Assembly (NCBI GenBank): GCA_036504895.1
Contig: DASXUJ010000104.1
Coordinates: forward strand, 1-49,755
Reading direction: 5' to 3'
DNA length: 49,755 bases
Source: Syntrophorhabdaceae bacterium
Lineage (GTDB): Bacteria > Desulfobacterota > Syntrophorhabdia > Syntrophorhabdales > Syntrophorhabdaceae
Positions 25,137 through 45,045 of this stretch are shown one piece after another. The notes under the pieces are model-generated. The model was given only the letters and a program-made list of their open reading frames with translations, did no database searches and was not told where the DNA came from. Both the position numbers and the translations under genes were made by a program. Numbering within the stretch: position 1 is the first letter of the stretch; each line of letters begins with the position of its first letter.

Positions 25137-25142
25137 AGGGGC

Positions 25143-25318: not shown

Positions 25319-25326
25319 GGTTAATC

Positions 25327-28300
25327 ATGATTGCTAAATTAATAGAACTGAGCGCACGGAACAAGTTTATCGTCTTTCTTCTTATCTTTTTTTCCATGGC
25401 GTGGGGATTCTGGTCCCTCCAGCGTACCCCTCTCGATGCGATTCCCGACCTCTCCGACACCCAGGTGATCATCTATACCGATTGGACCGGGAGGAGTCCC
25501 GATCTCGTTGAAGACCAGATCACCTACCCCATCACCTCGACGCTCCTTGCCGCCCCCCATGTGCAGGCAGTGAGGGGCTTCTCCTTTCTCGGAAGCTCCT
25601 TCATCTACGTCATATTCAAAGAGGGGACCGATATTTACTGGGCACGAAGCAGGGTGCTCGAATACCTCCAGGCAGTGAGGAACAAGCTTCCCCAGGGCAT
25701 CAACCCGGTCCTCGGTCCTGACGCCACGAGCCTCGGCTGGGGGTTTTCCTATGCCCTGGTAGATGAGACGGGGAAACATGACCTCTCCCAACTCCGCTCC
25801 CTGCAGGACTGGAACCTTAAGCTCGCAATAGAGAGCGTTCCCGGCGTAGCCCAGGTGGCGAGCGTGGGCGGTTTCGTAAAGCAATACCAGATTACCCTCG
25901 ATCCCAACCGTCTTTCTGCGTACAACGTCCCTATTACGAAGGTTATGGAGGCAGTGAGAAGGAGCAACCTCGATGTGGAGGGGCGGGTCATCGAATTTTC
26001 CGGCGTCGAATATATGGTGAGGGGAAGGGGCTATATAAAGACCATCTCCGATATCGAGGACATCCCCGTGGCCGCGAATGGCGCGGGCACCCCCGTCTAT
26101 CTTAAAGATATTGCCCAGATAAAGCTGGGGCCCGAAATCAGGAGGGGACTGGCCGAACTGGACGGCAGGGGGGAGGTTGCTGCCGGCATCGTGGTGGTAA
26201 GGTTCGGGGAGAATGTGCTCAATGTGATCGACCGGGTCAAGGCAAAGATCGCGCACGACATCGAGCCGTCTCTCCCGAAGGGAGTGAAGGTGGTCGTTAC
26301 CTATGACCGGTCCGACCTCATACGCCATGCCATCGGCACGCTAAAGGATGAGATTATCAAGCTCTCTATTGCCGTGAGTGCGGTCTGCATCGTTTTTCTC
26401 TTTCATCTGCCGAGTGCCCTGGTGGTGATCCTTACCCTCCCTATCGCCATTATCATGTCCTTCATCTGCATGTACTACCTCGGAGTGACCTCCAACATCA
26501 TGAGTCTTTCCGGCATCGCCATCGCCATCGGGGCTATGGTCGACGCCTCCATCATTATGGTGGAGAATGCCCATAAGAAACTCGAAGAATGGGAAACGGG
26601 GGGCAGGCAGGGACCAAGAACCGATGTGATTATCCACGCCGCTCAGGAGGTGGGACCGTCCCTGTTCTTCTCCCTCCTTGTGATAATGGTCGGGTTTCTG
26701 CCTGTATTCTCCCTTCAGGCGCAGGCGGGACGTCTCTTTACCCCTCTTGCCTACACCAAGACCTTTGCCATGCTCTTCTCCTCCTTTCTTGCCGTGACCC
26801 TGACGCCCGTGCTTATGACCCTTTTTATCAGGGGGAAGATACGACCGGAAGAGAAGAACCCTGTAAGCCGGGCCCTACACTGGGTCTACGAGCCTGTGGC
26901 CGCCTTTGCGCTCAGGTTCAGAAAGAGCGTTCTCATCGGGGGGATCCTGGTCCTCCTTCTCTCAGCCTATCCTTTTATGAAGCTGGGCAGCGAGTTTATG
27001 CCGCCTTTGTATGAAGGTACCCTCTTCTATATGCCCGTCACTGCCCCCGCCATATCGATCACGGTCGCGACAGACCTCCTTCAACTGCAGGACAAGCTCT
27101 TAAAAAAAATACCCGAGGTGAGCCAGGTCTTCGGGAAAGCGGGACGGGCAGAGACGCCGACGGACCCCGCACCGCTCGAAATGTTCGAGACAATTGTGAA
27201 TCTCAAGCCTGAATCGCAATGGCGAAAAGGTATGACGGTAGAGAAGCTGAAGGATGAGATGAACGATGCCCTCTCAATACCGGGAGTCTCCAACTCTTTT
27301 ACCATGCCCATAAAGGCCCGGACCGACATGAATGCCACGGGCATCCGAACACCGGTGGGCATAAAAGTGCTGGGTCCCAACCTGGAGGAGATCGAGAGGA
27401 TAGGCCTCGCGATCGAGCATCACGTCAAGGACATTCCCGGCACGAGAAGCGCCTATGCGGAGCGCATCACCACGGGATACTTCCTGGATTTCGAGGTCAA
27501 GCGCAAGGAAGCGGCCCGCTACGGTCTTAGCGTGGAGGACGTCCAGGAGGTGATAGAGGCCGCCATCGGAGGCATGAACCTCACCACCACCATAGAAGGA
27601 AGGGAGCGCTACACCGTGAATGTGCGCTACGCCCGGGAGCTTCGGGGAGACCTGGAGAGATTGAAGAGGATCCTCGTTCCCGTGGGAATGCAAGCGCCTG
27701 CCGCTACGGGAGGCATGGGAGGGCAGCGGGGTGCACCGGCGCCGGTCTCCCCTGTCATTGCCCAGGTACCCCTCGAGCAGTTAGCGGACATCAAGGTTGC
27801 GAAGGGGCCCACGGCAATCAAAAGCGAACAGGGTCTCCTTGCTTCCTACGTCTTTATCGATTTCGGCGGAAGAGACATCGGGGGCTACGTGGAGGAGGCC
27901 AAGAAAAAGGTGGCCGGTCTCAAGATTCCCGAGGGATACCGCCTCGAGTGGAGCGGCGAGTACGAATACCTCGTAAAAACTCATGAACGTCTGAAGATGG
28001 TGATCCCCCTCACCCTCCTTATCATCTTCGTGCTCATCTATTTCAATACGAAATCGGTCACGAAGACCCTCATCGTCCTTTTGGCCGTACCTTTTTCCCT
28101 GGTGGGGTCCTTCTGGTTCCTCTACTTCCTGAACTATAACATGAGCATTGCAGTCTGGGTGGGTATCATCGCCCTGGCGGGCCTTGACGCGGAGACCGGG
28201 GTCGTCATGCTCCTCTATCTCGACCTCTCCTACGAGCAATGGAAAAAAGAAGGAAAGCTCACCAGCATCCAGGGCTTGAAGGATGCCATCATGCACGGCG

Positions 28301-28548
28301 CCGTGAAGAGGATACGCCCCAAGATCATGACGGTAAGCGTCATCCTCGCGGGCCTTGTCCCCATCATGTTCAGCACCGGCGCAGGCGCGGACGTGATGAA
28401 AAGGATAGCCGCGCCGATGGTGGGAGGGGTTATAACCTCCACGATTTTGGAGCTGATCATTTATCCCGTTATTTTTATGATCTGGAGGGAACGAAAACTT
28501 AAAAAGGAGAATCCCGAACAGGCGGCCGAAGGGCCGATGGGACATTAG
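25327..28548 (+). CDS. cusA: CusA-type Cu(I)/Ag(I) RND efflux pump
   Basis: 1073 aa inner-membrane proton antiporter with 12 TM helices and two large periplasmic loops. It keeps Met569 (FYMPVTAP), Met619 (PLEMFET) and Met668 (RTDMNATG), which lie at a constant offset of 4 from the Met573/623/672 site known in E. coli CusA. This supports Cu(I)/Ag(I) rather than Co/Zn/Cd as substrate. The start has GAGGG 7 nt upstream. It is downstream of TolC and CusB, separated from the latter by the repeat hairpin. Extracytoplasmic Gly-rich insertion near residues 785-800 (TGGMGGQRG) is unusual. Confidence 0.95.
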   Translation: MIAKLIELSARNKFIVFLLIFFSMAWGFWSLQRTPLDAIPDLSDTQVIIYTDWTGRSPDLVEDQITYPITSTLLAAPHVQAVRGFSFLGSSFIYVIFKEGTDIYWARSRVLEYLQAVRNKLPQGINPVLGPDATSLGWGFSYALVDETGKHDLSQLRSLQDWNLKLAIESVPGVAQVASVGGFVKQYQITLDPNRLSAYNVPITKVMEAVRRSNLDVEGRVIEFSGVEYMVRGRGYIKTISDIEDIPVAANGAGTPVYLKDIAQIKLGPEIRRGLAELDGRGEVAAGIVVVRFGENVLNVIDRVKAKIAHDIEPSLPKGVKVVVTYDRSDLIRHAIGTLKDEIIKLSIAVSAVCIVFLFHLPSALVVILTLPIAIIMSFICMYYLGVTSNIMSLSGIAIAIGAMVDASIIMVENAHKKLEEWETGGRQGPRTDVIIHAAQEVGPSLFFSLLVIMVGFLPVFSLQAQAGRLFTPLAYTKTFAMLFSSFLAVTLTPVLMTLFIRGKIRPEEKNPVSRALHWVYEPVAAFALRFRKSVLIGGILVLLLSAYPFMKLGSEFMPPLYEGTLFYMPVTAPAISITVATDLLQLQDKLLKKIPEVSQVFGKAGRAETPTDPAPLEMFETIVNLKPESQWRKGMTVEKLKDEMNDALSIPGVSNSFTMPIKARTDMNATGIRTPVGIKVLGPNLEEIERIGLAIEHHVKDIPGTRSAYAERITTGYFLDFEVKRKEAARYGLSVEDVQEVIEAAIGGMNLTTTIEGRERYTVNVRYARELRGDLERLKRILVPVGMQAPAATGGMGGQRGAPAPVSPVIAQVPLEQLADIKVAKGPTAIKSEQGLLASYVFIDFGGRDIGGYVEEAKKKVAGLKIPEGYRLEWSGEYEYLVKTHERLKMVIPLTLLIIFVLIYFNTKSVTKTLIVLLAVPFSLVGSFWFLYFLNYNMSIAVWVGIIALAGLDAETGVVMLLYLDLSYEQWKKEGKLTSIQGLKDAIMHGAVKRIRPKIMTVSVILAGLVPIMFSTGAGADVMKRIAAPMVGGVITSTILELIIYPVIFMIWRERKLKKENPEQAAEGPMGH

Positions 28549-28599
28549 TGTGAAAATGACCGGCCATGAGACGAGATGGAATATCCGGGGTATTCTGCT

Positions 28600-29004
28600 A
28601 TGAAGGTAAGATTGCTAAAGAAATATCAGCTGACCGGCGCCCTGTGGCCTGTTCTCATCCTTCTGGTTCTTTTGAGTCAGACCTGCCTGGGTGCGGGAGT
28701 TTCCGCAGAACCATGTGTGGGTTTGCAGAAGGTCCCCCGTCACCACGGTACGCATGTTTCGGATAACTGCGTGACACACTGCGCCGGGAAGGGGTCGTGC
28801 AGCATTAGTTCCGCTGCCGGAGCGATGAATGTTGCTCCCCCATGGGAATTGCCCGCCCCTTCGACTCCGCCTCATAATGAGGCGTCTCTCTATATGCCGT
28901 CCATGGCTCTTCGCCCGGCACATAATGGCGCCTTTCAAACCGCCCGGGTCCCCCGCGGAAGGGGTGACCCTGTCTATCTCATTACCCTTCATTTTCTCTG
29001 TTGA
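28600..29004 (+). CDS. Secreted Cys-rich small protein, paralog of the gene at 18446
   Basis: 134 aa from ATG 28600 (142 aa if ATG 28576 is used; neither has a good ribosome site). An N-terminal hydrophobic segment (ALWPVLILLVLLSQTCLGAG) is followed by Cys/His residues (EPCVGLQ, HHGTHVSDNCVTHCAGKGSC) and a C-terminal VYLITLHFLC that matches the 18446 gene's IYLQTLSLLC. It lies just after cusA. The plan suggests an envelope metal-binding protein; no named family is recognised. Confidence 0.6.
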   Translation: MKVRLLKKYQLTGALWPVLILLVLLSQTCLGAGVSAEPCVGLQKVPRHHGTHVSDNCVTHCAGKGSCSISSAAGAMNVAPPWELPAPSTPPHNEASLYMPSMALRPAHNGAFQTARVPRGRGDPVYLITLHFLC

Positions 29005-29102
29005 TCGGGAGGCCTTTTTGACCCTGTTCCAGAATAGCGGGGCCGGAGATATCCGGTACGACTAAACCGCCATGTAGGCGGAAAAAAATGAAGGAGCTTT
29101 TT

Positions 29103-29315
29103 ATGAAAACAAATAGATTAGTGGTAAGTATCGCAATGGCTGCCGCGCTGTTTATGGGGGTTATCGGCACAAGTTTCGCTGACAACACTGAGGCAGAAAC
29201 CTGCGGCGCATGCGGGAACGGCAACAAATGCGGGTCCGTAAGTTCAGCTCAACCGCAGGCCGGTAAAACGGACGTGGACCGCTCCGACTGGCAAAGAATC
29301 AACAGAGCTAAATAA
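29103..29315 (+). CDS. Small secreted Cys-rich protein
   Basis: 70 aa from ATG 29103, chosen for AAGGAG 6 nt upstream. The signal peptide ends near SFA-DNT; the short mature part contains TCGACGNGNKCGSV, three Cys that could hold one metal ion, and ends in a polar tail. It follows the second Cys-rich gene and is closed by a strong hairpin. Composition and neighbourhood suggest a periplasmic metal-binding peptide, but no family is recognised. Confidence 0.65.
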   Translation: MKTNRLVVSIAMAAALFMGVIGTSFADNTEAETCGACGNGNKCGSVSSAQPQAGKTDVDRSDWQRINRAK

Positions 29316-29326
29316 GACCGTGAAAT

Positions 29327-29353
29327 GCAGAGGGTCCCGAAAGGGCCCTCTGC
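29327..29353 (+). terminator. Strong GC hairpin at the end of the cus operon
   Basis: GCAGAGGG plus CCC (29327-29338, with one bulged T) pairs with GGGCCCTCTGC (29343-29353) around GAAA. No T-tract follows, so it is a stable transcript end or a factor-dependent terminator rather than a textbook intrinsic one. Confidence 0.5.
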
Positions 29354-29576
29354 CCGGTCCACCGATCTTGAAGAAACCTTCAGCAATTCCTAATTTTACA
29401 TCATATCCAAAGATAGATCCATGAATGCAAACACGATTATAGACGGCAAGGTCAGGCGGGGCAGGAAGACAGTTGTCATAAGACCCCGTATCAGACATGC
29501 GGTCTTAAGGATCTCAGCTAACGTGCTCGCCAAATATCGGGCTTGACGGACAAACAGGGCGGTCCCCTTTGGAAAT

Positions 29577-30212
29577 ATGAGGGAGATGGGTACAAAGAAA
29601 GGCGTGTTGAAGAGATATCGCGTCCAGTTAATCTCGCTACTCGTCGGGGCAGGCGCGGGATACATTCTCGCGCACCCTTACACCATGCTCATCTACGCAT
29701 GGGCACATGCGCATCAGGCAGGAGCGGGCAGCTTCTCCGTAGGCAGATTGTCCGCAGCGGCTTTCACCATTTTTCAGCCCGTCATGCTTCCCATGGCACT
29801 TTCGTTCGCATTGATCGGAGCAATCGTAGGGTTTCTTGCCGGGACCGTGGTGGATAAGAAGAGGCGGCTCTACGTGGCAGAACGGGAGACCGAACGGAGG
29901 AGAGCGGCATTCGAGACACTCCATCAACTCATGGTGACCCTCTCTCACTACCTGTTGAACGCGAACACCATCATTGGAGGAATGGTTCGCCATTGCCAGA
30001 GAAGGGGCGGGCTCGACAAAGACCTGCTTCACGCCCTTGAGACCATCAACGAACAGGCCATAAAAGTGGAGGCTGTCGTCCGGGCGCTTCAAAAGGTGGA
30101 AGAGATCAAGACGGCTTCTTACACCGCCGACAGTACCATTGTCATGCTGGATGTGACCAAAGAACTGGAATCCGAGCTTGCCGGCAAGGGCCCGGAGGAA
30201 CGGGGTAGTTAA
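29577..30212 (+). CDS. Membrane protein with histidine-kinase-like helical domain but no ATPase domain
   Basis: 211 aa. Two TM helices (about 16-35 and 72-95) are followed by a cytoplasmic helical region, LHQLMVTLSHYLLNANTIIGG..., with the look of a HisKA dimerisation hairpin (Ser-His in place of the usual His-Glu). The protein stops before any HATPase_c box. The stop is genuine, with no kinase remnant downstream. It could be phosphorylated by, or dimerise with, another kinase, or be a relic. Start: ATG 29577 or 29586, both with imperfect ribosome sites. It lies between the Cus genes and copA. Confidence 0.6.
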   Translation: MREMGTKKGVLKRYRVQLISLLVGAGAGYILAHPYTMLIYAWAHAHQAGAGSFSVGRLSAAAFTIFQPVMLPMALSFALIGAIVGFLAGTVVDKKRRLYVAERETERRRAAFETLHQLMVTLSHYLLNANTIIGGMVRHCQRRGGLDKDLLHALETINEQAIKVEAVVRALQKVEEIKTASYTADSTIVMLDVTKELESELAGKGPEERGS

Positions 30213-30379
30213 GGCGATGAAACGGCATGGGAAACCATTTTAGCATGAAGCTGCGGAGAAAGCCCTTAGATATATCGCAGCGCGACGGCAGAAAGAATGA
30301 GCACCACGATGGTCAAAGACTCAAAAAAGTGAAGGGAACACCGACAATATATATACCCAGCTCCCACCGGAGGTAAGTT

Positions 30380-32782
30380 ATGAACGCGACCGACCCTGTC
30401 TGCAAGATGGTGATCAAGGAGAAGGACGCTGTTGCTACGACAGATTACAAAGGCACCACGTACTTCTTCTGTTCCCCCTCGTGCAAGATTGAATTCGACA
30501 AGGACCCACAGGCTTTTCTGAGCACTTCAGCACATGCCGTTTCAGGGCCCCTTCACGATGCCGAAGAACGGTTTTACACGTGCCCCATGCACCCGGAGAT
30601 CCGTGAGGCCAAGGCCGGGTCCTGTCCGAAGTGCGGGATGGCCCTGGAACCCGTGACGCCGGCCGTGTCTTTCAGGACCGAATGGACCTGCCCGATGCAC
30701 CCTGAGATTGTAAGGGATCGACCGGGCAACTGCCCCATATGCGGCATGGCGCTCGAGCCACGGGCGGGAACGGGAGAGGAAGAGAACCCCGAACTGATCG
30801 ATATGTCGCGCCGCTTCTGGTCAAGCCTTGCCCTCACTATCCCCTTGTTTACCCTGGCCATGGCGCCCCACTTCTCCCGTGTACTGACGGGACTCATTCC
30901 CCCGGCCGTCTCGGCATGGATCGAGTTTCTTCTCGCCACTCCGGTCGTGGTTTGGGGGGGTTGGCCTTTCTTTGTCCGCGCCTGGCAGTCCGTCGTCCAT
31001 CGCAGTCCCAACATGTTCACCCTGATCGGCCTCGGCACGGGCGTTGCCTATGCCTACAGCGTCATGGCGGTTCTCTTTCCCTGGATATTTCCTGCTTCTT
31101 TTCGTGGAGAAGGCGGGAGGGTGGGCCTTTACTTCGAGCCCGCCGCCGTGATCGTCACCCTTGTGCTGTTGGGCCAGGTACTCGAGCTGAAGGCACGGAG
31201 CAGGACAGGCGCCGCCATCAAGGCCCTCCTGGGCCTCGCGCCTAAGACAGCCCGACGGGTGAAGGACGGCAGGGAGGACGATGTCCCTCTGGACCAGGTG
31301 ACCCCGGGCGATCTCCTGCGCGTCCGTCCCGGGGAGAAGGTACCGGTTGACGGCGTGGTGGTTGAAGGTCAGAGCGCGGTGGATGAGTCTATGGTGACGG
31401 GAGAGCCGGTCCCCGTGCGCAAAGAGAAGGGCGACCGCCTTATAGGAGCTACGGTGAACGGCACGGGGAGTCTTATCATGAGGGCGGAAAAGGTTGGCGC
31501 GGATACACTCCTGGCGCAGATCGTCCGAATGGTGGCCGATGCGCAGCGCAGTCGCGCCCCCATCCAGAAACTTGCAGATTCTGTGGCCGGGTACTTCGTC
31601 CAGTCCGTGGTCGCCGTGGCTCTGGTCACTTTTGTCATATGGGCATGGATAGGGCCCGAGCCGCGGATGGCCCTCGCCCTCATCAATGCGGTTGCCGTGC
31701 TCATCATCGCCTGCCCGTGCGCCCTCGGGCTCGCCACGCCCATGTCGATAATGGTGGCCACAGGAAAAGGTGCCACGGCGGGGGTCCTCTTCAAGAATGC
31801 GGAGGCCATTGAAGTCATGAGAAAAGTGGACACCCTCGTGGTGGACAAGACAGGCACGCTCACCTTGGGCAAGCCAAAGCTCGTCGAAGTTTGGCCCGCC
31901 TCGGGGTTCGTGGAAAAGGAGGTCCTTCGTTTCGCCTCCAGTTTGGAGCAAGGGAGCGAACACCCCCTTGGCGCGGCAATAGTGGGCGGAGCGGGGGAAA
32001 GGGGTATCAGGCCGGAAGCGGTAGAGGATTTTCAATCCATCACGGGAAAAGGGGTGATGGGCAGGGTTGACGGGAGAGATGTCCGTCTGGGGAACGCCGG
32101 GTTTGCCGGTGACCCCGGCGCGGAGACCGGTGCTCTTTCCGGCAGGGCGGAGGAGATGCGAGGCCAGGGCAACACGGTAATGTTCCTTTCGGTTGACGGG
32201 AAAGTGGCAGGCCTGCTCGGAGTAGCCGATCCCATAAAGGAGACGACACCCGAGGCTGTCGGCCTGCTCCACGATGAGGGCGTGTGGATCGTTATGGTTA
32301 CGGGCGACAGCCGCACGACCGCGGATGCGGTGTCGAAAAAGCTCGGTCTCGATGAGGTTATTGCTGAAGTATTGCCTGATAAGAAGGCAATCATCGTGAA
32401 GCAGCTTCAGGATCGGGGCAGGACCGTGGCCATGGCGGGGGACGGCATTAACGACGCGCCGGCGCTGGCGCAGGCCCACGTGGGCATCGCCATGGGCACG
32501 GGTACGGACGTGGCGATGGAAAGCGCGGGAGTGACCCTGGTGAAAGGCGACCTCCGGGGTATAGTCCGTGCCAGGGCCCTGAGTCGCGCTACGATGCGGA
32601 ACATCAAGGAAAACCTCTTTTTTGCATTGATCTATAACGCGTTAGGGATTCCCGTAGCTGCCGGGCTCCTCTACCCCTTATGGGGAATCCTGCTGAGCCC
32701 CGTTTTTGCCGCGGCGGCCATGAGCTTGAGCTCGGTCTCCGTAGTCGGAAACGCACTCAGATTGAAAAGGGTCACGTTATGA
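30380..32782 (+). CDS. copA: Copper-exporting P1B-type ATPase with YHS and two heavy-metal-binding domains
   Basis: 800 aa. An N-terminal YHS domain ([20 protein letters not shown]) is followed by two HMBD repeats (YTCPMHPEI...[10 protein letters not shown] and WTCPMHPEI...[10 protein letters not shown]), then eight TM helices. The transmembrane metal motif is C445-P-C447, and the phosphorylation site is D489-KTGT; TGEPVPV and [10 protein letters not shown] are present. It exports Cu(I) from cytoplasm to periplasm. The absence of the usual CxxC HMA domains, replaced by YHS/HMBD, is typical of the CopA/CopB-like group in these bacteria. Ribosome site CGGAGGTAA is well placed. Confidence 0.95.
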
Positions 32783-34575: not shown

Positions 34576-35070
34576 TTATCCGGCATAAGGGCAAATCGAT
34601 TTCCATTCGGCCTCTTTTGGCGGCGGAACCTCAAGCCCAAGCCCCTTTGTTCTCGCCTCAACGCATATGGCGTCAAGGGTCACGGAGTCAAAATAGTCCA
34701 TCAGCAGCCTCGACGCCTCGCTCCACACATCCGATACGACGCATTTTCCGAAGCGCTTGCACGCCCCCTTCGAGCCCCGCGTGCCTCCGGAGCAAAATAC
34801 AAGCTGAATCTCGTGCCCGTCGACAGCCCGTATCACGTCTCCCACGGTTATCTCTTCGGGCCTCCTGGCGAGAATATATCCCCCCGACGGCCCCCTTGCG
34901 CTCCTTATGATTCCCCCTTTCCTCAGTTTCTGAAATATCTGTTCAATATATCGCGGGGAGATGGCTTGCCGTTCGGAGATACTGCTCACCTGCACGGGAG
35001 CCCCTTCCGAGTTGTATGCGATATCGCAAAGAGCCCGTACGCCGTAACGAATCTGAGTAGTGAGTTTCAT
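34576..35070 (-). CDS. Rrf2 family transcriptional regulator with three candidate ligand Cys
   Basis: 164 aa. N-terminal winged helix (MKLTTQIRYGVRALCDIAYN, then ISERQAISPRYIEQIFQKL) and the wing GPSGGYILAR are diagnostic of Rrf2 proteins. Cys93, Cys104 and Cys110 give a Cx10Cx5C pattern near the IscR/NsrR Cx5Cx5C cluster site, with a longer first loop. It could bind an Fe-S cluster or sense thiols; CymR-like function with CysK is the alternative. Ribosome site GGGGAG is 5 nt upstream. It is divergent from the DUF2325 gene and close to the cysteine synthase operon, whose promoter carries palindromes. The regulator-site link is inference. Confidence 0.9.
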   Translation of the reverse strand: MKLTTQIRYGVRALCDIAYNSEGAPVQVSSISERQAISPRYIEQIFQKLRKGGIIRSARGPSGGYILARRPEEITVGDVIRAVDGHEIQLVFCSGGTRGSKGACKRFGKCVVSDVWSEASRLLMDYFDSVTLDAICVEARTKGLGLEVPPPKEAEWKSICPYAG

Positions 35071-35358: not shown

Positions 35359-35395
35359 TTGACACCGACCCTGAAGAGATATAGTCTAGTTATAT
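35359..35395 (+). promoter_or_regulatory. Possible promoter and weak palindromic box E before the DUF2325 gene
   Basis: TTGACA at 35359-35364; at 15-17 bp spacing the -10 candidates are TATAGT (35380-35385) and TAGTCT (35382-35387). The 17-mer ATATAGTCTAGTTATAT (35379-35395) is a palindrome with identical outer arms and matches the TATnGTAnTACnATA pattern at only 8 of 12 positions. Confidence 0.4.
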
Positions 35396-35577: not shown

Positions 35578-35922
35578 ATGAAAGAAACTGGATTGAAATC
35601 ACTTAAAGGTGAACAGGGTAAAGCAAAAAGGACTATCGCGGTAGTGGGCGGCATCGTGGGCCTGGAGCCTCAATACAGGCGTGCCCTTGAAGAAAATAAT
35701 TTCTTTCCCCGAATATATAATCGGGACAGCGCAAGCCTCGGGGAAAAGATCAAACGGATAAATGGCATAATTCTTTTTACGGGCACGGTGTCGCACAAGA
35801 TGGCGGAGAAGATCAGGAAGATGGCGGCACTCCGCGAGATACCCCTTATCACGGTCCGTCCGAGCAGCATTTCAGCCCTTAAGAAGTCGGTAGTGAGTTT
35901 TCCCTCCCAACCCCCGCTATAA
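35578..35922 (+). CDS. DUF2325 domain protein
   Basis: 114 aa. It has the DUF2325 layout: TIAVVGGIVGLEPQYRRAL, a central acidic part, TVSHKMAEKIRKMA and ITVRPSSISALKKSV. In most family members the middle motif is a TDCVSH-like stretch with Cys; here the Cys is missing (GTVSH). The function is not established; the family is seen in anaerobic and redox-linked loci. It is divergent from Rrf2 and upstream of the corrinoid operon, and is followed by a hairpin. Confidence 0.75.
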   Translation: MKETGLKSLKGEQGKAKRTIAVVGGIVGLEPQYRRALEENNFFPRIYNRDSASLGEKIKRINGIILFTGTVSHKMAEKIRKMAALREIPLITVRPSSISALKKSVVSFPSQPPL

Positions 35923-36041: not shown

Positions 36042-36070
36042 TTGACACAATTTCTCCTTCATCGTATAGT
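36042..36070 (+). promoter_or_regulatory. Sigma70 promoter of the corrinoid/cysteine synthase operon
   Basis: TTGACA (36042-36047), a 17-bp spacer and TATAGT (36065-36070): the best promoter in the window. Transcription should start near 36077, leaving a leader of about 40 nt before ATG 36117. Confidence 0.75.
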
Positions 36071-36094
36071 ATTACTATCGACTTACTATAGTAA
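36063..36094. promoter_or_regulatory. Tandem palindromes over the -10 and start of the corrinoid operon (box C)
   Basis: First site 36063-36081: the core ATAGTA-T-TACTAT is a perfect palindrome lying over the -10 and matches TATnGTAnTACnATA at every fixed position except the last. Second site: TTACTATAGTAA (36083-36094), a perfect 12-bp palindrome at the predicted start of transcription. Position implies repression. The same pattern occurs at 18285-18303 and 45285-45303. Confidence 0.65.
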
Positions 36095-36116: not shown

Positions 36117-36776
36117 ATGGCGGAGTTGAAAGAACAGGTGATCAGGGATTTATCGGACGGTGTGGTGGAAATGGACGAGGAGAAGGTTATTGACGCATCA
36201 AATTTGGTCGTGACGAACGGCTTAGACGCGTACGTAGCAATAGAACAAGGCCTTTCCCATGGAATGGAGCGGGCAGGACAGCTTTTCGAGGAGGAAGAAT
36301 ATTTTGTTCCCGAGCTCCTCATATGCTCCGACGCTATGTATGCCGGTCTCGAAGTTCTCACCCCTCACATCAAGGCAGCGGAAGGTGTTGAGAAGAGAAG
36401 AATAGTGCTCGGGGTTATCGAGGGAGATACCCATGACATCGGCAAGAATCTCGTCAAAATTATGTTGGAGACGTCGGGCTTCGAGATTATAGACCTGGGG
36501 AGGGATGTGCCTGCCTCGAGATTCGTGGAAAAGGCCAAAGAGGTGGATGCCGATGTGATCGCTATCTCCACCCTCATGACCACCACCATGTCCGGAATGG
36601 CCGAAGTGATCCATTCCCTCACGGAAGAAGGTATACGGGACCGCTTTAAGGTGATCGTCGGCGGCGGGCCCATTTCCAAGGGTTTTGCGGAGCGGATCGG
36701 CGCGGACGGCTATGCGGTCAATGCCTCTTCGGCAGTGAAGCTCGTGAGACAGATCACGGATGGCAATAACCAATGA
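36117..36776 (+). CDS. Corrinoid-binding methyl-transfer protein (MtaC/MtbC/MtsB type)
   Basis: 219 aa. A helical N-terminal cap (about 1-88) precedes the B12-binding Rossmann domain with D104-x-H106-x2-G109 (GDTHDIGKN), His106 being the lower cobalt ligand, then the SxL (STLMTT) and GG (VGGGPIS) motifs. It carries a methyl group on cobalt between two methyltransferases. Start: GGAGG 8 nt upstream. Its stop overlaps the next start by 4 nt. It leads a ten-gene operon with its own promoter and palindromes; the methyl donor is unknown. Confidence 0.95.
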   Translation: MAELKEQVIRDLSDGVVEMDEEKVIDASNLVVTNGLDAYVAIEQGLSHGMERAGQLFEEEEYFVPELLICSDAMYAGLEVLTPHIKAAEGVEKRRIVLGVIEGDTHDIGKNLVKIMLETSGFEIIDLGRDVPASRFVEKAKEVDADVIAISTLMTTTMSGMAEVIHSLTEEGIRDRFKVIVGGGPISKGFAERIGADGYAVNASSAVKLVRQITDGNNQ

Positions 36777-37837
36777 ACGATAAGGAAATGACCCCCTTGG
36801 AAAGGCTTCGCTCATATGGGAGCGGCGCGTCGATAGACCGTCTCCCCTGCGTCCCCATCGTGGGAAACACGGCTGCCCGCGTGATAGGCGTCAGGGTGTC
36901 CGATCTTCGCAACAACGCCGCCCTCCTCGCGAAGGCCCATATAGAGACCTACCGGTTATTCCGGTACGACGGCATCCGGATTTTCACCGATCTTTACGTG
37001 CAGGCAGAAGCCATGGGCGCGCAAGTGTACGTTCCTGCAGACGAGACGGCGTACCTTCAGGAACCGGCAATCGAGGACGTCCGGCAGATCCCGGATCTTA
37101 AACGCGCCGATCCTTATCGCGACGGCTCCATGCCTGCCCACCTCGAAGCAATGAGGATAGCAGTCGATGAAGTAGGCGATGAAGTGCCGGTAACCGGCGC
37201 TCTCACGGGCCCCTTTACCAATGCCTCCTTTCTTATCGGCACCGTAAAACTGGCGAGGCTCATTTACAAGGACCCCGATGCGGCGCATCGTCTGTGCGAG
37301 CTGTCCCTTGCCACCGGTCTCGTGTATGCGAAGGCTATGATAGATCTCGGGGGTACACCGAGCCTTACGGACGCCATGTCTTCATCGACGGTGATAAGCC
37401 CCCGCCAGTTTCGGGAGTTTTCCTATCCCTACCTGAAGCGGCTCATCGACTACATCCACGGAAGGGGCCGGTCCGTGACCCTCCACATTTGCGGCAAGAC
37501 GAACGCCTTATGGCAGCTCATGGTGGATGCCGGCGCCGATTGCCTGAGCATCGACAACGAGGCGGACCTCTTCGACGCGAAGCTGAAGGTCGGCGGCCGG
37601 GCGCGGCTCATGGGAAACGTGAGGCCATCGGAGGTAATGCTCGAGGGCACGCCCTCCGACGTGAGAGCGGCGGTAATCAAATGCGTGCGCGCCGCCCATG
37701 ACAACCCGAAAGGATACATCGTGGCCTCGGGATGCAGTCTTCCCACGGAGACCCCTTTTGCGAACATAAAGGCCATGGTCGATACGGTCCGTGAGATAGG
37801 ATACCCGGTAAACCATGGATTATTGGAGAGAGGATAA
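36773..37837 (+). CDS. Uroporphyrinogen decarboxylase-family methyltransferase (MtaA/MtbA-like), first copy
   Basis: 354 aa TIM barrel of the UroD/MtaA class. The candidate zinc ligands are the His and Cys of LHICGKT and the Cys of ASGCSLPTETP, as in methylcobamide:thiol methyltransferases; the porphyrin-site Asp/Arg pattern of true HemE is not evident. It probably moves a methyl group between the corrinoid protein and a thiol or other substrate. It overlaps the corrinoid gene by 4 nt, so equimolar, coupled translation is likely. The direction of transfer is not decidable from sequence. Confidence 0.9.
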   Translation: MNDKEMTPLERLRSYGSGASIDRLPCVPIVGNTAARVIGVRVSDLRNNAALLAKAHIETYRLFRYDGIRIFTDLYVQAEAMGAQVYVPADETAYLQEPAIEDVRQIPDLKRADPYRDGSMPAHLEAMRIAVDEVGDEVPVTGALTGPFTNASFLIGTVKLARLIYKDPDAAHRLCELSLATGLVYAKAMIDLGGTPSLTDAMSSSTVISPRQFREFSYPYLKRLIDYIHGRGRSVTLHICGKTNALWQLMVDAGADCLSIDNEADLFDAKLKVGGRARLMGNVRPSEVMLEGTPSDVRAAVIKCVRAAHDNPKGYIVASGCSLPTETPFANIKAMVDTVREIGYPVNHGLLERG

Positions 37838-37841
37838 GAGA

Positions 37842-38876
37842 ATGGCGCAGCTCACGGAAAAAGAACGGCTATTGACGGTGTTGGAGAGAAAGGCGGTCGA
37901 CCGTCCCCCTGCCATATGCCCGGGAGGGATGATGAACGCCGCGGTAGTGGAGATAATGAGGAAGACGGGCCATGTTCTTCCGGAAGCACACTTCGATGGA
38001 AAACTGATGGCCGAGCTTGCATTCGATGTACATAAAGAGACCGGTTTCGAGAACTTCGGCCTGCCCTTCTGCATGACCGTGGAGGCGGAGGTATGGGGAA
38101 GCGACATAGAATTCGGCAGTATTTCGTGCGAACCGAAGATAAGGAAGGAGCATTTCCGGTCCGTCTCCGACGTGAGAGAGAAGAGCGTAGACGAACTCCT
38201 CTCTTCGAGAAGAGTAGGCGCGGTCCTCGACGCCATCGGAAGGCTTTCGAGGGAGCATCCCTACATCCCGGTCACCGGCACCCTTACCGGCCCCGTGAGT
38301 CTCGCGGCGTCCATCGTCGACCCCATGACCTTCTATCGGGAGCTGAGAAAGAATCGCGAAGATGCCCACAAGGCGCTTTCTTACGCAAGCGAATTCCTTG
38401 CCGCTTTTGCCGCCGCAATGATAGAGGCCGGAGCCGATGTCATCGCGATCGCCGATCCCAGCGCCACAGGAGAGATATTGGGTCCCCGCCTATTTGAAGA
38501 GTACGCCCTGCCCTATCTCAACCGCGTGATCGACACAGTTCACGCCCTTAAGGTACCCGTCATCCTTCATATTTGCGGCGACCTGAAGCCTGTAAAGCGG
38601 CTCATCCCGGCGCTCGGGGCCGATGCGATAAGCACGGATGCGGTGGTCAATCTCAAGAACCTCAAAGACGAGTTTCCCGGTCTTACCACCATGGGCAACG
38701 TGAGCACCTATCTGCTCGAATTCGGCGAACCCCACAGTGTGGCAAGAAAGACCGGGCAGCTGATATTGGACGGGGTCGACATCATATCTCCCGCCTGCGG
38801 CCTCAGCACATCCACCCCTCTCGACCGCATAAGGGCGATCACTAAGACCGTAAAGGAGCACAATGGCACGCGTTAA
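37842..38876 (+). CDS. Uroporphyrinogen decarboxylase-family methyltransferase (MtaA/MtbA-like), second copy
   Basis: 344 aa from ATG 37842, four bases after the previous stop (ATG 37815 would overlap it). Same fold and zinc motif: LHICGD and SPACGLSTSTP. It differs substantially from the first copy, so one probably handles the methyl donor and the other the acceptor. A run of helices after GTLTGPVSLAASIV matches MtbA-like proteins. The gene overlaps the next by 14 nt. Confidence 0.9.
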   Translation: MAQLTEKERLLTVLERKAVDRPPAICPGGMMNAAVVEIMRKTGHVLPEAHFDGKLMAELAFDVHKETGFENFGLPFCMTVEAEVWGSDIEFGSISCEPKIRKEHFRSVSDVREKSVDELLSSRRVGAVLDAIGRLSREHPYIPVTGTLTGPVSLAASIVDPMTFYRELRKNREDAHKALSYASEFLAAFAAAMIEAGADVIAIADPSATGEILGPRLFEEYALPYLNRVIDTVHALKVPVILHICGDLKPVKRLIPALGADAISTDAVVNLKNLKDEFPGLTTMGNVSTYLLEFGEPHSVARKTGQLILDGVDIISPACGLSTSTPLDRIRAITKTVKEHNGTR

Positions 38877-40488
38877 ATTTCTCCCCAATGATGTCACCAT
38901 CGATGTCAACGAACAGGTCACGATCCTCGACGCAGCCCGGCTCGCCGGTGTGAGAATAGAATCACCCTGCAACGGGACAGGCAAGTGCGGAAAATGCAGA
39001 GTGACCCTCGACGACGGGGAAACCCCTGTGCTTGCGTGCACAACCGTGGTCAGGGACGGTGTCTCCGTTCATGTCGTTGAGGAGGATAACCGCTCACTTG
39101 AGATCCTGAGCCACGCGAACCACGTGGAGACATCGGTCGACCCCTATATCCGGAAGATCTTCGTCGCAACGGAGGGGAGGACGCTCGTCTATGGAGGAGC
39201 CTATCTCCTCGGGTCTGAAAAAGGAGATGGGGTGGACAAGAATTATGGCGTGGTCGTCGATATCGGAACCACCACCCTTGTCGCCTCGCTCGTAGACCTG
39301 ACTGGCGGACATGAGTTGGGCACTGCCTCCTCGCTCAACCCCCAGGCGATCCATGCCCAGGATGTGCTTTCCCGGATCACGTTTTGCGCGGAGCCCGAAG
39401 GGATGGATATTATGTTCGGGGAGTTCGCGAAAGAGGTGAACCGCCTGGTGGGCGAAGTCTCCACACGAGCGGGAATCGACAGGGAGAACATTTACGAGGC
39501 GGTATACAGCGGGAACACGTGCATGCTTCATCTCGCCACGGGCACAAACCCCCGCTCCCTGGGCAGGTATCCCTACACCCCGGCGCTTACTGGCGGACAG
39601 GTACTTTCCGCGGAAGAGATGGGGCTTCGCATTTCGAAATACGGCCTCGTCTATCTTCCCCCCGTCATCTCCGGGTTTGTAGGGGCCGATATCACCTCAG
39701 GGATACTCGCCACGAGACTCCATGAAAGAAAGGGGAAGACCCTCTTTGTGGATATCGGCACCAACGGGGAGATGGTATTAAGCGTGGACGGCACACTCGT
39801 CGCCTCATCCACTGCAGCAGGGCCCGCCTTCGAGGGCATGAATATCACTTTCGGTATGAGGGCCGAGCGGGGTGCGGTGGAGGAGTTCAGCGTGACCGAA
39901 AGGGGCGTCTCCCTAAAGACCATAGGGAATGCAGCGGTGCGGGGCATATGCGGGAGCGGTCTTCTCGACATAGTGGGAGAGCTCGTGGCCCACAGGGTGA
40001 TCGACGACAAAGGGAAACTCGTCGACCCGGCGAACGGTATATATCCCTTTCTCAAGGACCGCCTCGGCAGGGAGAACGACAAGCCGGTCTTCTATCTTTC
40101 TCCGGGCGTATACCTGTCCCAGAAGGACGTGCGCCAGGTCCAACTGGCAAAGGGGGCCGTCAGGACAGGGATCGAGTTTCTGCTCCGCCATGGGGGAATC
40201 ACTGCTCGCGACGTGGACGAAGTACTTATCGCGGGTTCTTTCGGATATCACCTGCGGGAAGAGAGCCTCATCTCTACGGGCCTCTTGCCCGCCGAGTTCA
40301 GAGGAAAGGTGGAGTTCGTGGGCAACACGTCCAAATCGGGGGGACACGTGTTTCTCGTCAATAAAGAGGCAAGAGAAGAGATTACGACCCTTGTCAAAGG
40401 GATTAACGTCTTGGAGCTTGCAAATTATCCGGACTTCGACAAGGTCTTTGTCAAGTCCCTGGGATTTCATCAGGAGGAATGGGCGTGA
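38863..40488 (+). CDS. RACo-type ATP-dependent reductive activator of corrinoid proteins
   Basis: 541 aa. An N-terminal [2Fe-2S] ferredoxin domain has C36, C42, C45 and C59 (PCNGTGKCGKCRV). After a linker comes the ASKHA/DUF4445 actin-like ATPase: VVVDIGTTTLVASLVDL, FVDIGTNGEM, ICGSGLLD and LIAGSFG. Such proteins rescue corrinoid proteins whose cobalt has been oxidised to Co(II). Co-location with the corrinoid protein makes this role very likely. Ribosome site AAGGAG is 4-5 nt before the start. Confidence 0.94.
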   Translation: MARVKFLPNDVTIDVNEQVTILDAARLAGVRIESPCNGTGKCGKCRVTLDDGETPVLACTTVVRDGVSVHVVEEDNRSLEILSHANHVETSVDPYIRKIFVATEGRTLVYGGAYLLGSEKGDGVDKNYGVVVDIGTTTLVASLVDLTGGHELGTASSLNPQAIHAQDVLSRITFCAEPEGMDIMFGEFAKEVNRLVGEVSTRAGIDRENIYEAVYSGNTCMLHLATGTNPRSLGRYPYTPALTGGQVLSAEEMGLRISKYGLVYLPPVISGFVGADITSGILATRLHERKGKTLFVDIGTNGEMVLSVDGTLVASSTAAGPAFEGMNITFGMRAERGAVEEFSVTERGVSLKTIGNAAVRGICGSGLLDIVGELVAHRVIDDKGKLVDPANGIYPFLKDRLGRENDKPVFYLSPGVYLSQKDVRQVQLAKGAVRTGIEFLLRHGGITARDVDEVLIAGSFGYHLREESLISTGLLPAEFRGKVEFVGNTSKSGGHVFLVNKEAREEITTLVKGINVLELANYPDFDKVFVKSLGFHQEEWA

Positions 40489-41171
40489 AGAGAGAAAAGA
40501 AGAAAGAGAAAGAGCCGTTCAGCTGCTCGTCCTGCGGTCTCCTCAACTGCTACCGGAGAGACAAGAGCTTCCCCCGGGCGTGTCTTACCACTGCCTTGAA
40601 GGCGGGGGACATGGAAGAGGTCCTTACGCTCTATAAGGAGGAGGGGCAGGATTCGCAAATCGCACGGGCTGCTGCCGAAATAGAAGGGACATACTTCGGC
40701 AAGCTCACGAGGGTTGAAGAGATCATCGAATTCGCACGGCGTATGGGGGCGCGAAAGATCGGTATCGCCAGCTGCGTCGGCCTGATGAACGAAACGAGGA
40801 TCTTCGCCCAGGTGCTCGAGAAAAAGGGGCTCAAAAGCTACACGGTGATTTGCAAGGTCGCGTCCATCGATAAGACGGAGATCGGGATTCCCGAAAGCCT
40901 TAAGGTGGAGCCCGGCTGCCACGAATCGCTCTGCAATCCTATACTCCAGGCAAAACTGCTCAATAAGGAAAAGACGGACCTCAACGTGATCGTCGGGCTA
41001 TGCGTGGGACATGACTCCCTTTTTGTAAAGTATTCGAAAGCCCTGGTCACGACCCTCATCACCAAGGACCGCGTTTTGGGTCACAACCCCGCGGCAGGGC
41101 TCTATACGAGCGGGTTTTACTATAAGAGACTCCTCACGGAGGAGCCGTTCGCACCACACAAGGAGGATTGA
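40485..41171 (+). CDS. DUF1847 Cys-rich protein, probable GTG start
   Basis: 228 aa from GTG 40485, 7 nt after AGGAGG; the ATG at 40479 is only 2 nt from that site. N-terminal Cys motif CSSCGLLNCY, then AARAAAEIEG, GARKIGIASCVGLMNE, and PGCHESLCNPI. DUF1847 proteins are metal-binding in appearance and accompany corrinoid methyltransferase systems in anaerobes and methanogens. The exact function is unknown. Its start overlaps the activator's stop by 4 nt, showing translational coupling. Confidence 0.88.
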   Translation: MKREKKKEKEPFSCSSCGLLNCYRRDKSFPRACLTTALKAGDMEEVLTLYKEEGQDSQIARAAAEIEGTYFGKLTRVEEIIEFARRMGARKIGIASCVGLMNETRIFAQVLEKKGLKSYTVICKVASIDKTEIGIPESLKVEPGCHESLCNPILQAKLLNKEKTDLNVIVGLCVGHDSLFVKYSKALVTTLITKDRVLGHNPAAGLYTSGFYYKRLLTEEPFAPHKED

Positions 41172-41174
41172 TCG

Positions 41175-42197
41175 ATGAAAAGATTATTTGCCTATGCAGT
41201 ATTCGCCATTTTCCTGGCCCTCTCGGCCACGCCGGGCCACGCGGCACGGGACCTCAAGAGATTCAATGTCGGCTACCTTGCATCCACGGGCCATGCCATG
41301 TACTTCGTCGCAAAAGAGAAAGGTTACTTTGAGGCTGAGGGTCTCGATGTCCAGCTCTTTCTTTTTACCAATTCCGGAGAAGGCATGAACGCCGTTGCCG
41401 CAGGCAAGCTCGATGCAGGCTCTTTCGGCACGGCCCCGCCATTGGTTCATATCACTAAGGGGGCTGATCTCACGATCTTCGGCGGTCAAATGTCGGAAGG
41501 CCACGGAATCGTGGCAAAGCCCGACAAGGCGGATCTATTCAGGGATTTGAAGAATTACAGGGGTAAAACCATTGCCACCGTTCGGCTCTCCACTGGAGAT
41601 GTCATCTTCAAGGGAGGTCTCCACCGGGCCGGTCTCGATTGGAAGAAGGATTTGACCGTCAAAGAACTTGATTCTCCCGGTGCAGTACTGGAAGCAGTGA
41701 AGAAAGGGAGCGTCGATGCCGGCGTTGTATGGCCCCCCTTTCTCACCCTTGCCGAGCAGCAGGGACTCAAGGTGGCCCGTCGCTCGGGCGAAGTGCTCCC
41801 CGGCCACACGTGCTGCCGCCAGGTCGCCCTCACCTCTAAACTGAAGGCAAGTGAGGCCGACTACGTGAAGTTCGTGCGGGCTTTGATACGGGCCCATGCA
41901 TTCTACAAGGCCTATCCCGATGAGACGATCGAGATTACGGGCAAGTACGTGAAGATCGACAAGTCCATACTCAAGAGAGACCTCTATAACGGGAACCTCT
42001 ATCTCAGCCCCGACCCGGAAAAGGCAGGCGTGCTCGCTTTCTGGGAGTACATGAACAGGGCGGGTTATATCACTTCTACGGAAAAAGTGGAGACCCACAT
42101 CACCACGGAAATCTTCCGAAAAGCCCTCGAGGGACTTATAAAAGAGTACCCCAATGAGAGGGACTACAAGGCCCTGAAGGCGAGTTTCCGGATTTAG
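41175..42197 (+). CDS. ABC transporter substrate-binding protein, SsuA/TauA/NMT1 type
   Basis: 340 aa. Signal peptide to about residue 23 (GHA-ARD). The mature protein has the NMT1/SsuA-like pattern: FNVGYLASTGHAMYFVAKEKGYFEAEGLDVQL, then NAVAAGKLDAGSFGTAPPL. It binds a small anionic or organic solute in the periplasm. Relatives carry sulfonates, taurine, nitrate or thiamine precursors. Here the operon (cysteine synthase, corrinoid methyltransferases) suggests a methylated organosulfur compound, an inference. Ribosome site AGGAGG is 8 nt upstream. Confidence 0.9.
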   Translation: MKRLFAYAVFAIFLALSATPGHAARDLKRFNVGYLASTGHAMYFVAKEKGYFEAEGLDVQLFLFTNSGEGMNAVAAGKLDAGSFGTAPPLVHITKGADLTIFGGQMSEGHGIVAKPDKADLFRDLKNYRGKTIATVRLSTGDVIFKGGLHRAGLDWKKDLTVKELDSPGAVLEAVKKGSVDAGVVWPPFLTLAEQQGLKVARRSGEVLPGHTCCRQVALTSKLKASEADYVKFVRALIRAHAFYKAYPDETIEITGKYVKIDKSILKRDLYNGNLYLSPDPEKAGVLAFWEYMNRAGYITSTEKVETHITTEIFRKALEGLIKEYPNERDYKALKASFRI

Positions 42198-42207
42198 GAG
42201 AGACCGG

Positions 42208-43266
42208 ATGAATGGAACAGCAGCCCCGGGACAGGAATTTTGGGGATCGAAGGCCCGGCCTTTCGGTCAGGCAGGAGCCGCTCGGAAAATTGCGGCAAAA
42301 CCAGAGGGAAGGGAGAAGACGATGAAGAAGACTATACCGGGAAAACTCGCATCCATACCCAACTTCCTCTTTCTTGCCTTCTGCCTCCTTCAGTTTTTGC
42401 CCACCAAAAGGCCCGGCGAGGCGACAATCTATCTTCAGATATTCCTTGCCCTCGTGGAAACAGCGTATCTTTTCCATTATTTCCTGAGAAAGGAGACGGC
42501 GAATGTCCAAACCTCCGGCGATCTTATCACTATCTTCTATGTGGCCATCTTTCTATGGGAGCTTTTTACCACAAGGCTCGATTTCCTGGACAAATTGCTT
42601 TTCCCTTCACCCGAATTCATCCTTGCCCTGCTTGTCAAAGAGATCCCGGCCTTTCTTACCGGCCTGGTGAGTTCTCTCCAGATCCTGATCGCGGGGTACG
42701 GAGCGGGAGCGCTTCTGGGGATAAGCCTTGGCCTCTTCGCAGGATGGATCGCGAGGCTTCGAAGAGCGGCAATACCTCTTACCCGGGCACTGGGGCCCAT
42801 TCCTCCGACAGTCTATATCCCTTATGCGATCGTACTCCTTCCCAGTTTCAAGCTTTCCTCCATCTTCATCATCTTCGTGGGCGCCTTCTGGCCCATCTTT
42901 ATCAACACGATGAACGGGGTGCTGAGCATAGAAGGGAGGATCATCGAATCTGCGAAGGTATTGAACCTCGATCAAAAGACCATGCTTTTAAAGGTAGTCC
43001 TGCCCGGAACCCTTCCTAATATCATGACCGGGGCAACCATCGGGCTGGCTATGTCATTTATTCTCCTCACTGCGGCCGAGATGATCGGGGCCACGTCGGG
43101 CCTCGGATGGTACGTGAAGTATTTTTCGGATTTCGCCGATTATCCCCGGGTCATTGTGGGGATTATCTATGCAGGCATCGTGGTGACCGCCATCATGTAT
43201 GCCTTCGATAAACTGGAGAGACGGCTCCTTCGATGGAGACGCCTCGACGCACATCACATTAAATAA
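42208..43266 (+). CDS. ABC transporter permease, SsuC/TauC type
   Basis: 352 aa with about eight TM helices and the EAA loop near GRIIESAKVLNLDQKTMLLKVVLPGTLP. Two starts are plausible: ATG 42208 (AGGAG 7-8 nt upstream, 10 bp after the previous stop) and ATG 42322 (GGGAG 7 nt upstream), which removes an unconserved 38-aa extension. It partners the binding protein just before it and the ATPase at 44218. An extra N-terminal pair of TM helices relative to ordinary SsuC proteins is visible. Confidence 0.9.
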   Translation: MNGTAAPGQEFWGSKARPFGQAGAARKIAAKPEGREKTMKKTIPGKLASIPNFLFLAFCLLQFLPTKRPGEATIYLQIFLALVETAYLFHYFLRKETANVQTSGDLITIFYVAIFLWELFTTRLDFLDKLLFPSPEFILALLVKEIPAFLTGLVSSLQILIAGYGAGALLGISLGLFAGWIARLRRAAIPLTRALGPIPPTVYIPYAIVLLPSFKLSSIFIIFVGAFWPIFINTMNGVLSIEGRIIESAKVLNLDQKTMLLKVVLPGTLPNIMTGATIGLAMSFILLTAAEMIGATSGLGWYVKYFSDFADYPRVIVGIIYAGIVVTAIMYAFDKLERRLLRWRRLDAHHIK

Positions 43267-43278
43267 GGAGAATGGATC

Positions 43279-44208
43279 ATGTCAAGAATTGCAAAGAATC
43301 TCACGGATCTTATCGGAAGGACCCCGCTTCTGCGCCTCAACAAGGTGACGGAAGGGATCGATGCGGAGATAGTGGGAAAGATCGAATCCTTTAATCCTGC
43401 GGGGAGCGTCAAGGACCGCATCGGCTACGCCATGATCAAGGACGGCGAAGACAGAGGGCTCATCACGAAAAGAACGGTGCTCATAGAGCCCACCTCAGGC
43501 AATACGGGCATTGCCCTCGCATTTGTGGCTGCGGCCAAAGGGTACCGGCTGATCCTCACCATGCCCGATACGATGAGCATCGAGCGGAGAAACCTGCTCA
43601 AGGCCTACGGCGCAGAGCTGATCTTAACGCCCGGCGCGGAGGGCATGAAAGGGGCGATCCTGAAGGCGGAAGAACTCTCCCGGACGATACCCGATTCTTT
43701 TGTGCCCCAGCAGTTCAAGAACCCGGCAAACCCCGCGATCCATCGCGCCACCACGGCGGAGGAGATATGGGAGGATACGGACGGCAAGGTGGATATTCTC
43801 ATATCCGGCGTAGGCACAGGCGGCACGATCACGGGCGTGGCGGAGGTAATCAAGCCGCGGAAACCAGGCTTCAAAGCCATCGCGGTGGAGCCCTTCGATT
43901 CTCCCGTCCTCTCGGGAGGGAGTCCGGCGCCCCACAAAATCCAGGGGATCGGGGCAGGCTTTGTCCCCGACGTACTCAACCTCAAGCTCGTCGATGAGAT
44001 TATCAAGGTGAAAAATGACGAAGCCCTGGATACGGCCCGGAGGCTTGCAAAGGAAGAGGGGCTTCTCGTAGGCATCTCATCCGGGGCGGCTGCCTTTGCG
44101 GCCATTCAGGTTGCCAGACGACCCGAGAACAGGGGCAAGCTCATTGTCGCCATACTTCCGGACACGGGTGAGCGCTATTTGAGCACGATCCTCTTTCAAC
44201 AGCAATAA
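43279..44208 (+). CDS. cysK: Cysteine synthase A (O-acetylserine sulfhydrylase)
   Basis: 309 aa fold-type II PLP enzyme: Lys45 in GSVKDR is the Schiff-base residue; [21 protein letters not shown] and the C-terminal SSGAAAFAA are standard. It makes cysteine from O-acetylserine and sulfide. It interrupts the transporter genes, between permease and ATPase, which ties sulfur capture directly to the import system. CysK is also the known co-regulator of the Rrf2 protein CymR in Firmicutes, relevant because an Rrf2 gene is 8 kb upstream. Ribosome site AAGGAG is present. Confidence 0.95.
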
Positions 44209-44217
44209 GGTGGGTTT

Positions 44218-45033
44218 ATGGCAAAAATAGTGTTGGACGGGGTCAGGTTTTCCTACGGCAGTCAGGAGGTCCTCCGGGACGTCGCCCTCTGTGTGGATCA
44301 AGGGGATTTCCTTTGTATCGTAGGCCCCTCGGGAGCGGGGAAAAGCTCCCTCCTCAGGCTTATCGCGGGGCTGGCGACACCCTCCTCGGGAAGCATCACG
44401 ATTGACGGCAAATACATCACGGGGGCGGGTCTTGACAGGGGCGTCGTCTTTCAGGACTACACCCTCTTCCCCTGGATGACGGCGGGAGAAAACATCCTCC
44501 TCGCCCTAAAGCAGGCCTACCCCGCAAAGGAGACCCGGGAGCTCAAGGGACTGGGTCAGGACTTTCTCGAGCTGGTAGGTCTTCCGGAAGTGTACGATAG
44601 ATTTCCGGGCGAGCTCTCGGGCGGCATGAGGCAACGGGTTGCCATTGCGCGGGTCTTCGCCGCCGACCCGCCCATACTCCTCATGGATGAGCCCTTCGGC
44701 GCCCTTGACGCGGTAACGCGGATAAAACTGCAGGACCTCCTCATCAACCTGTGGCAGCGAGAGAAGGGCCAGTCCAAAACGGTGGTTTTCGTCACCCACG
44801 ACGTGGAAGAGGCCCTCATCCTCGCAAACAGGATCGCCGTCGTCGGGATCAATCCCGGCGTTATCAAAGAGGTGTGCGAGGTCACGCTGCCGAGGCCGAG
44901 GATTCGTCAGAGCCTCTTCAGCAATCGGGATTTCCTTGCCTTGAGAGGCCACCTGGTGGAAGTCCTTCATGACGAGATATTGAACCAGGTCTCCCGGGAC
45001 CAGGTGGCGTTCCCCGGGGGAGATAAAATTTGA
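44218..45033 (+). CDS. ABC transporter ATP-binding protein, SsuB/TauB type
   Basis: 271 aa. Walker A GPSGAGKSS, Q-loop VVFQDYTLFPW, signature LSGGMRQRVAIAR, Walker B ILLMDEPFGALD, H-loop THDVEEAL. The C-terminal extension (about 210-271) is longer than in minimal SsuB. It energises the permease at 42208. It follows cysK by 9 bp. Ribosome site AAGGTGG lies 4-5 nt upstream. Confidence 0.95.
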   Translation: MAKIVLDGVRFSYGSQEVLRDVALCVDQGDFLCIVGPSGAGKSSLLRLIAGLATPSSGSITIDGKYITGAGLDRGVVFQDYTLFPWMTAGENILLALKQAYPAKETRELKGLGQDFLELVGLPEVYDRFPGELSGGMRQRVAIARVFAADPPILLMDEPFGALDAVTRIKLQDLLINLWQREKGQSKTVVFVTHDVEEALILANRIAVVGINPGVIKEVCEVTLPRPRIRQSLFSNRDFLALRGHLVEVLHDEILNQVSRDQVAFPGGDKI

Positions 45034-45045
45034 AGGAGGATTAAA

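Follow-up and report, generated by a model that had tools for sequence, protein, structure and literature searches.

The window analysed here, a stretch of 49,755 nucleotides from a Syntrophorhabdaceae bacterium, carries a plus-strand operon of ten genes that overlap or lie at most 12 bp apart (Table 1). The first five encode a corrinoid protein (36117-36776), two MtaA/CmuA-type URO-D methyltransferases, a RACo-type activator and a DUF1847 protein; the last five encode SsuA-like and SsuC-like proteins, CysK (43279-44208), an SsuB-like protein and a small tautomerase. The first-pass annotation spoke of a cysK/corrinoid operon; the corrinoid protein is encoded by the first gene, and cysK is the eighth. 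The corrinoid protein and the methyltransferases fall below every equivalog cut-off for a named substrate. Directly before the operon lies a DUF2325 gene (35578-35922), and an Rrf2-family regulator gene is 1 kb from the corrinoid promoter. Elsewhere the window holds a heavy-metal efflux block (22519-32782) with an outer-membrane factor, a CusB-like adaptor, an RND pump and a YHS/HMBD P-type ATPase, and a second CusB-like gene at 47648-49018.

Table 1. Promoter, palindromes, operator sites and principal genes in the window.
Feature	Position	Strand	Remarks
Predicted sigma-70 promoter	36042-36070	+	TTGACA (36042-36047), 17-nt spacer, TATAGT (36065-36070)
Palindrome 1, ATAGTATTACTAT	36066-36078	strandless	ATAGTA-T-TACTAT; -10 hexamer plus right arm of dyad
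Palindrome 2, TTACTATAGTAA	36083-36094	strandless	self-palindromic left arm of dyad
Main operator (predicted), TTACTAT-N9-ATAGTAA	36072-36094	-	about -5 to +18; genome-wide model match 36071-36093
Weak second register of operator	36062-36083	+	overlaps -10, 11 bp upstream of main register
Operator, exact core	45286-45302	+	directly upstream of TTGACA-17-TATATA promoter of ThiI-like gene (45346-46338) and bioB (46355-47335)
Operator, exact core	18286-18302	+	upstream of minus-strand genes for HPr (17894-18157) and a Cys/Met-metabolism PLP enzyme (16752-17897)
Operator, one core mismatch	18426-18442	+	upstream of Cys-rich protein with N-terminal hydrophobic stretch (18446-18847)
Weak candidate site, 9/11 positions	35379-35395	+	DUF2325 promoter
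Rrf2-family regulator	34576-35070	-	IscR-like, three Cys; 1 kb from corrinoid promoter
Ten-gene operon	36117-45237	+	adjacent genes overlapping or separated by no more than 12 bp

The promoter before the corrinoid gene had been described as near-ideal, and it matches 11 of 12 consensus positions, being the top plus-strand promoter of the scanned region. We infer that transcription starts at about 36076-36078; every position given relative to +1, that of the operator among them, is likewise predicted. The two perfect palindromes first reported here are present, palindrome 1 covering the -10 hexamer, and they are separated by 4 bp (cgac, 36079-36082) rather than 5 bp. Single palindromes of such size are not rare in the window, with 38 found against 30 expected from shuffles, and we dropped their count alone as evidence, as too common. 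The window has one close pair with a common half-site, whereas none of 60 dinucleotide shuffles has any.

The two palindromes are better read as a single 23-bp dyad, TTACTAT-N9-ATAGTAA, with arms at 36072-36078 and 36088-36094 and nine bases between them. Palindrome 2 would then follow from the self-complementarity of the left arm, ACTATAGT, and palindrome 1 from the -10 hexamer together with the right arm. The CTAT-N9-ATAG inverted repeat occurs five times in the window, where 0.37 is expected, and CTAT/ATAG repeats at all other spacings from 0 to 19 occur 0 to 2 times each; this excess at N9 is a stronger signal than the palindrome pair. The core of the operator, CTATAGTAAGTCGATAG, lies on the minus strand at 36075-36091. 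A second register, with 9 of 11 consensus positions at 36064-36080, scores 14.4 bits against 23.7 bits for the main register, and it is probably a pseudo-site that arises automatically because the left arm is self-palindromic. With one common dyad and a second register so weak, the strong cooperative repression predicted from two abutting palindromes is not supported. The inverted repeat ACTAT-N9-ATAGT, just downstream of the -10, overlaps the promoter and start as expected for a CymR-type operator, and the element is best taken as one putative operator of 19-23 bp, ACTAT-N9-ATAGT, extended to TTACTAT-N9-ATAGTAA.

The 17-bp core CTATAGTN6ATAG has exactly three copies in the 4.35-Mb genome, all of them at promoters on the window's contig (36075-36091 on the minus strand, 18286-18302 and 45286-45302); since the core was derived from these sites, the informative part is its absence elsewhere in the genome. 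The site at 18426-18442 differs from it by one mismatch. A fifth site, like that at 18426-18442 a weaker copy, lies on another contig, C62, before a gene near cysK and an Rrf2 gene; we call this gene rhodanese-like from the start of its sequence only. A profile built from seven sites hits five places genome-wide at E<1, four in the window and one at the C62 rhodanese-like gene, and as all five belonged to the training set, the finding is that the genome holds no further places. The weak candidate at the DUF2325 promoter is not matched by the genome-wide profile model. A one-mismatch site was also seen 64 bp before an MnmA/ThiI-like gene (L013 1501-1517; G000:C21:12136), on a contig that carries the closest Rrf2 paralogue (75%); the genome-wide model has no match there.

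Predicted operators precede the corrinoid/SsuABC/cysK, PLP-enzyme and ThiI-like/bioB promoters, and most genes under the operator appear to be sulfur genes. The HPr-like gene runs into the beginning of the PLP-enzyme gene, as if the two formed one operon under the 18286 site. The ten genes of the corrinoid operon are predicted to serve sulfur scavenging. The corrinoid operator had been contrasted with a 'box D' upstream of the -35; that name is undefined in the first-pass annotation, yet the contrast is real and the site at 45286-45302 fits the description. Sites directly upstream of the -35 are also found at the C62 rhodanese-like gene and at the ThiI orthologue of a same-genus genome, G002.

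Sites of this kind recur in relatives. A matrix made from the five own-genome sites reaches at least 13 bits in 8 of 34 regions, these being the promoters of cysK and C62-type Rrf2 genes in relatives, with the own genome left out. Permuted matrices gave a mean of 0.20 and shuffled regions a mean of 0.11, and none of 300 permuted matrices and none of 200 shuffle sets reached eight promoters. Related sites lie over the -10 and start of cysK and Rrf2 genes, as does that at 36072-36094. The promoter was also compared with those of related genomes, a check suggested earlier. The segment 36064-36100 resembles the cysK promoters of G002 (1 of 500 shuffles as good) and of a second genome, G037 (0 of 500), the G002 cysK promoter sharing 16 of 19 bases with 36070-36088. 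Only one operon proved fully syntenic, L108 of Syntrophaceae MAG bog_1155, where gene order is the same from DUF2325 to SsuB; its promoter has no significant match to the window promoter (176 of 500 shuffles were as good), and the likeness was dropped as support. In L108 the DUF2325 gene likewise stands first, with the promoter upstream of it. G002 has kept the operator at two promoters: directly upstream of the -35 at the ThiI orthologue (74% identical), and covering the -10 at a Cys-rich-gene homologue (26% identical, E 9e-13). When 99,462 positions are scored with a matrix of four foreign cysK/Rrf2 sites, the window sites take ranks 1, 2, 4 and 6, although the four foreign sites were chosen for their likeness to the window sites and the test is not independent.

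Other searches gave less. Exact-core searches across relatives returned matches no commoner than a reversed control, many of them inside genes, and a stricter form of the core, sought in 395 genomes, was found only in the window and in one match within a coding frame. A scan of inverted-repeat spacing over 36 promoters of relatives gave no clear N7 peak, probably a consequence of pooling different site types. The tandem operators that precede cysK in Acetobacterium (L176) looked at first like a parallel and were rejected, as the sequence is very A+T-rich and they stand apart from the apparent cysK promoter. At another locus (L135, 7304-7325 and upstream of cysK), an Rrf2-cysK promoter carries ATCTA-N9-TAGAT, with the same arm spacing and other letters. 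In genome G185 (L186, 2541-2929), CATACTAATCCTAYCARTTTAGTTGACA occurs twice in the interval that separates the corrinoid genes from a divergent SsuA gene, and both copies continue into a TTGACA that resembles a -35.

The source genome has four Rrf2 matches, two of which are candidates to read the operator. One follows cysK on C62 (106103-106546); most genomes of the family have a relative of it, and the nearest of these, at 78% identity, is that of G002, where it is the sole Rrf2 match and of the CymR-like C62 type. The other is the Rrf2 protein of the window. In IscR, the Fe-S ligands are three cysteines and a histidine, His107. The window protein finds its best solved-structure match in IscR (4hf0, E 4e-26) and has its cysteines, C-X10-C-X5-C, at about the IscR ligand positions; in the alignment to 4hf0 the equivalent of His107 is absent, with Ser in its place, and the score against TIGR02010, the NCBIfam IscR model, is 130.8 bits, below the cut-off of 207.55.

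We favour, with moderate confidence, the reading that the element is the operator of a CymR-like Rrf2 repressor over the -10 and start, with the C62 Rrf2 as candidate reader and a small sulfur/cysteine regulon under its control. When cysteine or sulfur suffices, a dimer of the C62 Rrf2 would sit on 36072-36094 and block polymerase; when sulfur runs short, it would leave the operator and the corrinoid-SsuABC-cysK operon would be made. The products may then import a sulfur compound and demethylate it, with the sulfide passing to CysK. A site over the -10 and start should repress, and of the earlier repression reading this much stands: the geometry supports occlusion of the -10 and start, and the cysK/Rrf2 sites of relatives are alike, whereas cooperativity is unsupported. 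Where the site directly adjoins the -35 (45286-45302, the C62 site and the G002 ThiI orthologue), either repression or activation could result. It is tempting to speculate that one Rrf2 acts through one operator with opposite results, repressing over the -10 and start (corrinoid-cysK) and activating or fine-tuning at the -35 (ThiI-like/bioB, rhodanese), but we regard this as unlikely.

Several observations weigh against the favoured reading. The C62 cysK promoter itself has only a weak matrix match, of 6.0 bits, and another consensus, TCCCATTAAATTAGTAGG, is found at many of the family's CymR-like promoters. A CymR-type matrix from other family members scores about 3-7 bits on the window sites and 14-27 bits on its own members, and was rejected as a model for sites that it does not recognise. 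Because this matrix fails on the window sites, either operator specificity has drifted or another Rrf2 reads them. The misfit favours the window Rrf2, to which, as a local Fe-S-sensing sulfur regulator of IscR-like type with three cysteines, we assign a lesser though appreciable chance. Its gene lies close to the promoter, inside a 27-kb span with four of the five sites; G037 has a site between cysK and a divergent Rrf2 gene whose product is 48% identical to it, and related genes elsewhere are near ThiI-like and bioB genes. Yet when 14 other promoters of the window Rrf2 type and of own-genome paralogues were scanned, only that of G037 had a site, in a region shared with cysK. The window gene's own upstream 350 bp scores at best 10.4 bits, and G002 has kept the operator without having this type of Rrf2. 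The assignment to an Rrf2/sulfur-regulon class is better supported than that to an individual protein.

The motif, which was found without reference to any protein, could also be read by a sulfur-regulon transcription factor of a family other than Rrf2, with its gene elsewhere. We consider this quite unlikely, as the sites recur at the promoters of Rrf2 genes themselves and at adjoining cysK promoters; a site at a regulator gene's own promoter is the usual sign of autoregulation. That the palindromes are functionless by-products of an A+T-rich -10/start region would agree with how common single palindromes are in the window, but a 17-bp core common to several promoters, its genome-wide scarcity, the N9 peak and its presence in relatives make this very improbable. 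The element also lies at the predicted 5' end of the transcript, where it might act as RNA, in a leader hairpin or riboswitch. The leader folds worse than its shuffles (-2.6 kcal/mol, z +1.96) and an Rfam search of it matched no family, and the probability of an RNA role is close to negligible.

CymR is the Rrf2-family repressor of cysteine metabolism in Bacillus, Staphylococcus and Clostridium, and its DNA binding is aided by CysK when cysteine is plentiful. In B. subtilis CymR represses cysK and ssu genes, and in C. acetobutylicum the regulator gene adjoins cysK (PMC3828012). The system described here is similar in that the predicted targets include cysK and SsuABC-like genes, the C62 Rrf2 gene follows cysK, and related sites occur at the cysK/Rrf2 promoters of relatives; it differs in that the target operon is corrinoid-based. 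The element may work like a CymR-type operator, of which it is a putative member only. As for the IscR/NsrR side of the family, the ScNsrR site has been reported as 23 bp (PMC9338935), the same length as the dyad here. The window Rrf2 resembles IscR in cysteine positions and best structure match, and departs from it in the Ser at His107 and the sub-cut-off family score. MtaA/CmuA/MtgC-type corrinoid operons with RACo likewise have a corrinoid protein, two URO-D methyltransferases and a RACo-type activator; unlike them, the operon here is joined to an SsuABC-like importer and CysK. Among open-licence papers, a literature search on Rrf2 with corrinoid genes, DUF1847 or a corrinoid/SsuABC/CysK operon returned nothing relevant.

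The element is of an ordinary kind; its target operon is new and its predicted regulon compact. The regulon has five sites, and the recognition unit is now read as a single dyad in place of two palindromes. Several other genomes (L130, L135, L136, L140 and L176) also have corrinoid, cysK and Rrf2 genes close together. In many anaerobes, relatives of the corrinoid protein (L105-L184) have cysK and SsuABC-like genes no more than 10 kb away, and these neighbourhoods suggest a widespread role in sulfur metabolism. If the two-position reading were true, it would give a compact anaerobe switch for corrinoid-dependent sulfur uptake from methylated compounds. With the corrinoid operon tied to cysteine/sulfur control, its substrate is likelier to be a methylated sulfur compound or a sulfonate than a carbon source.
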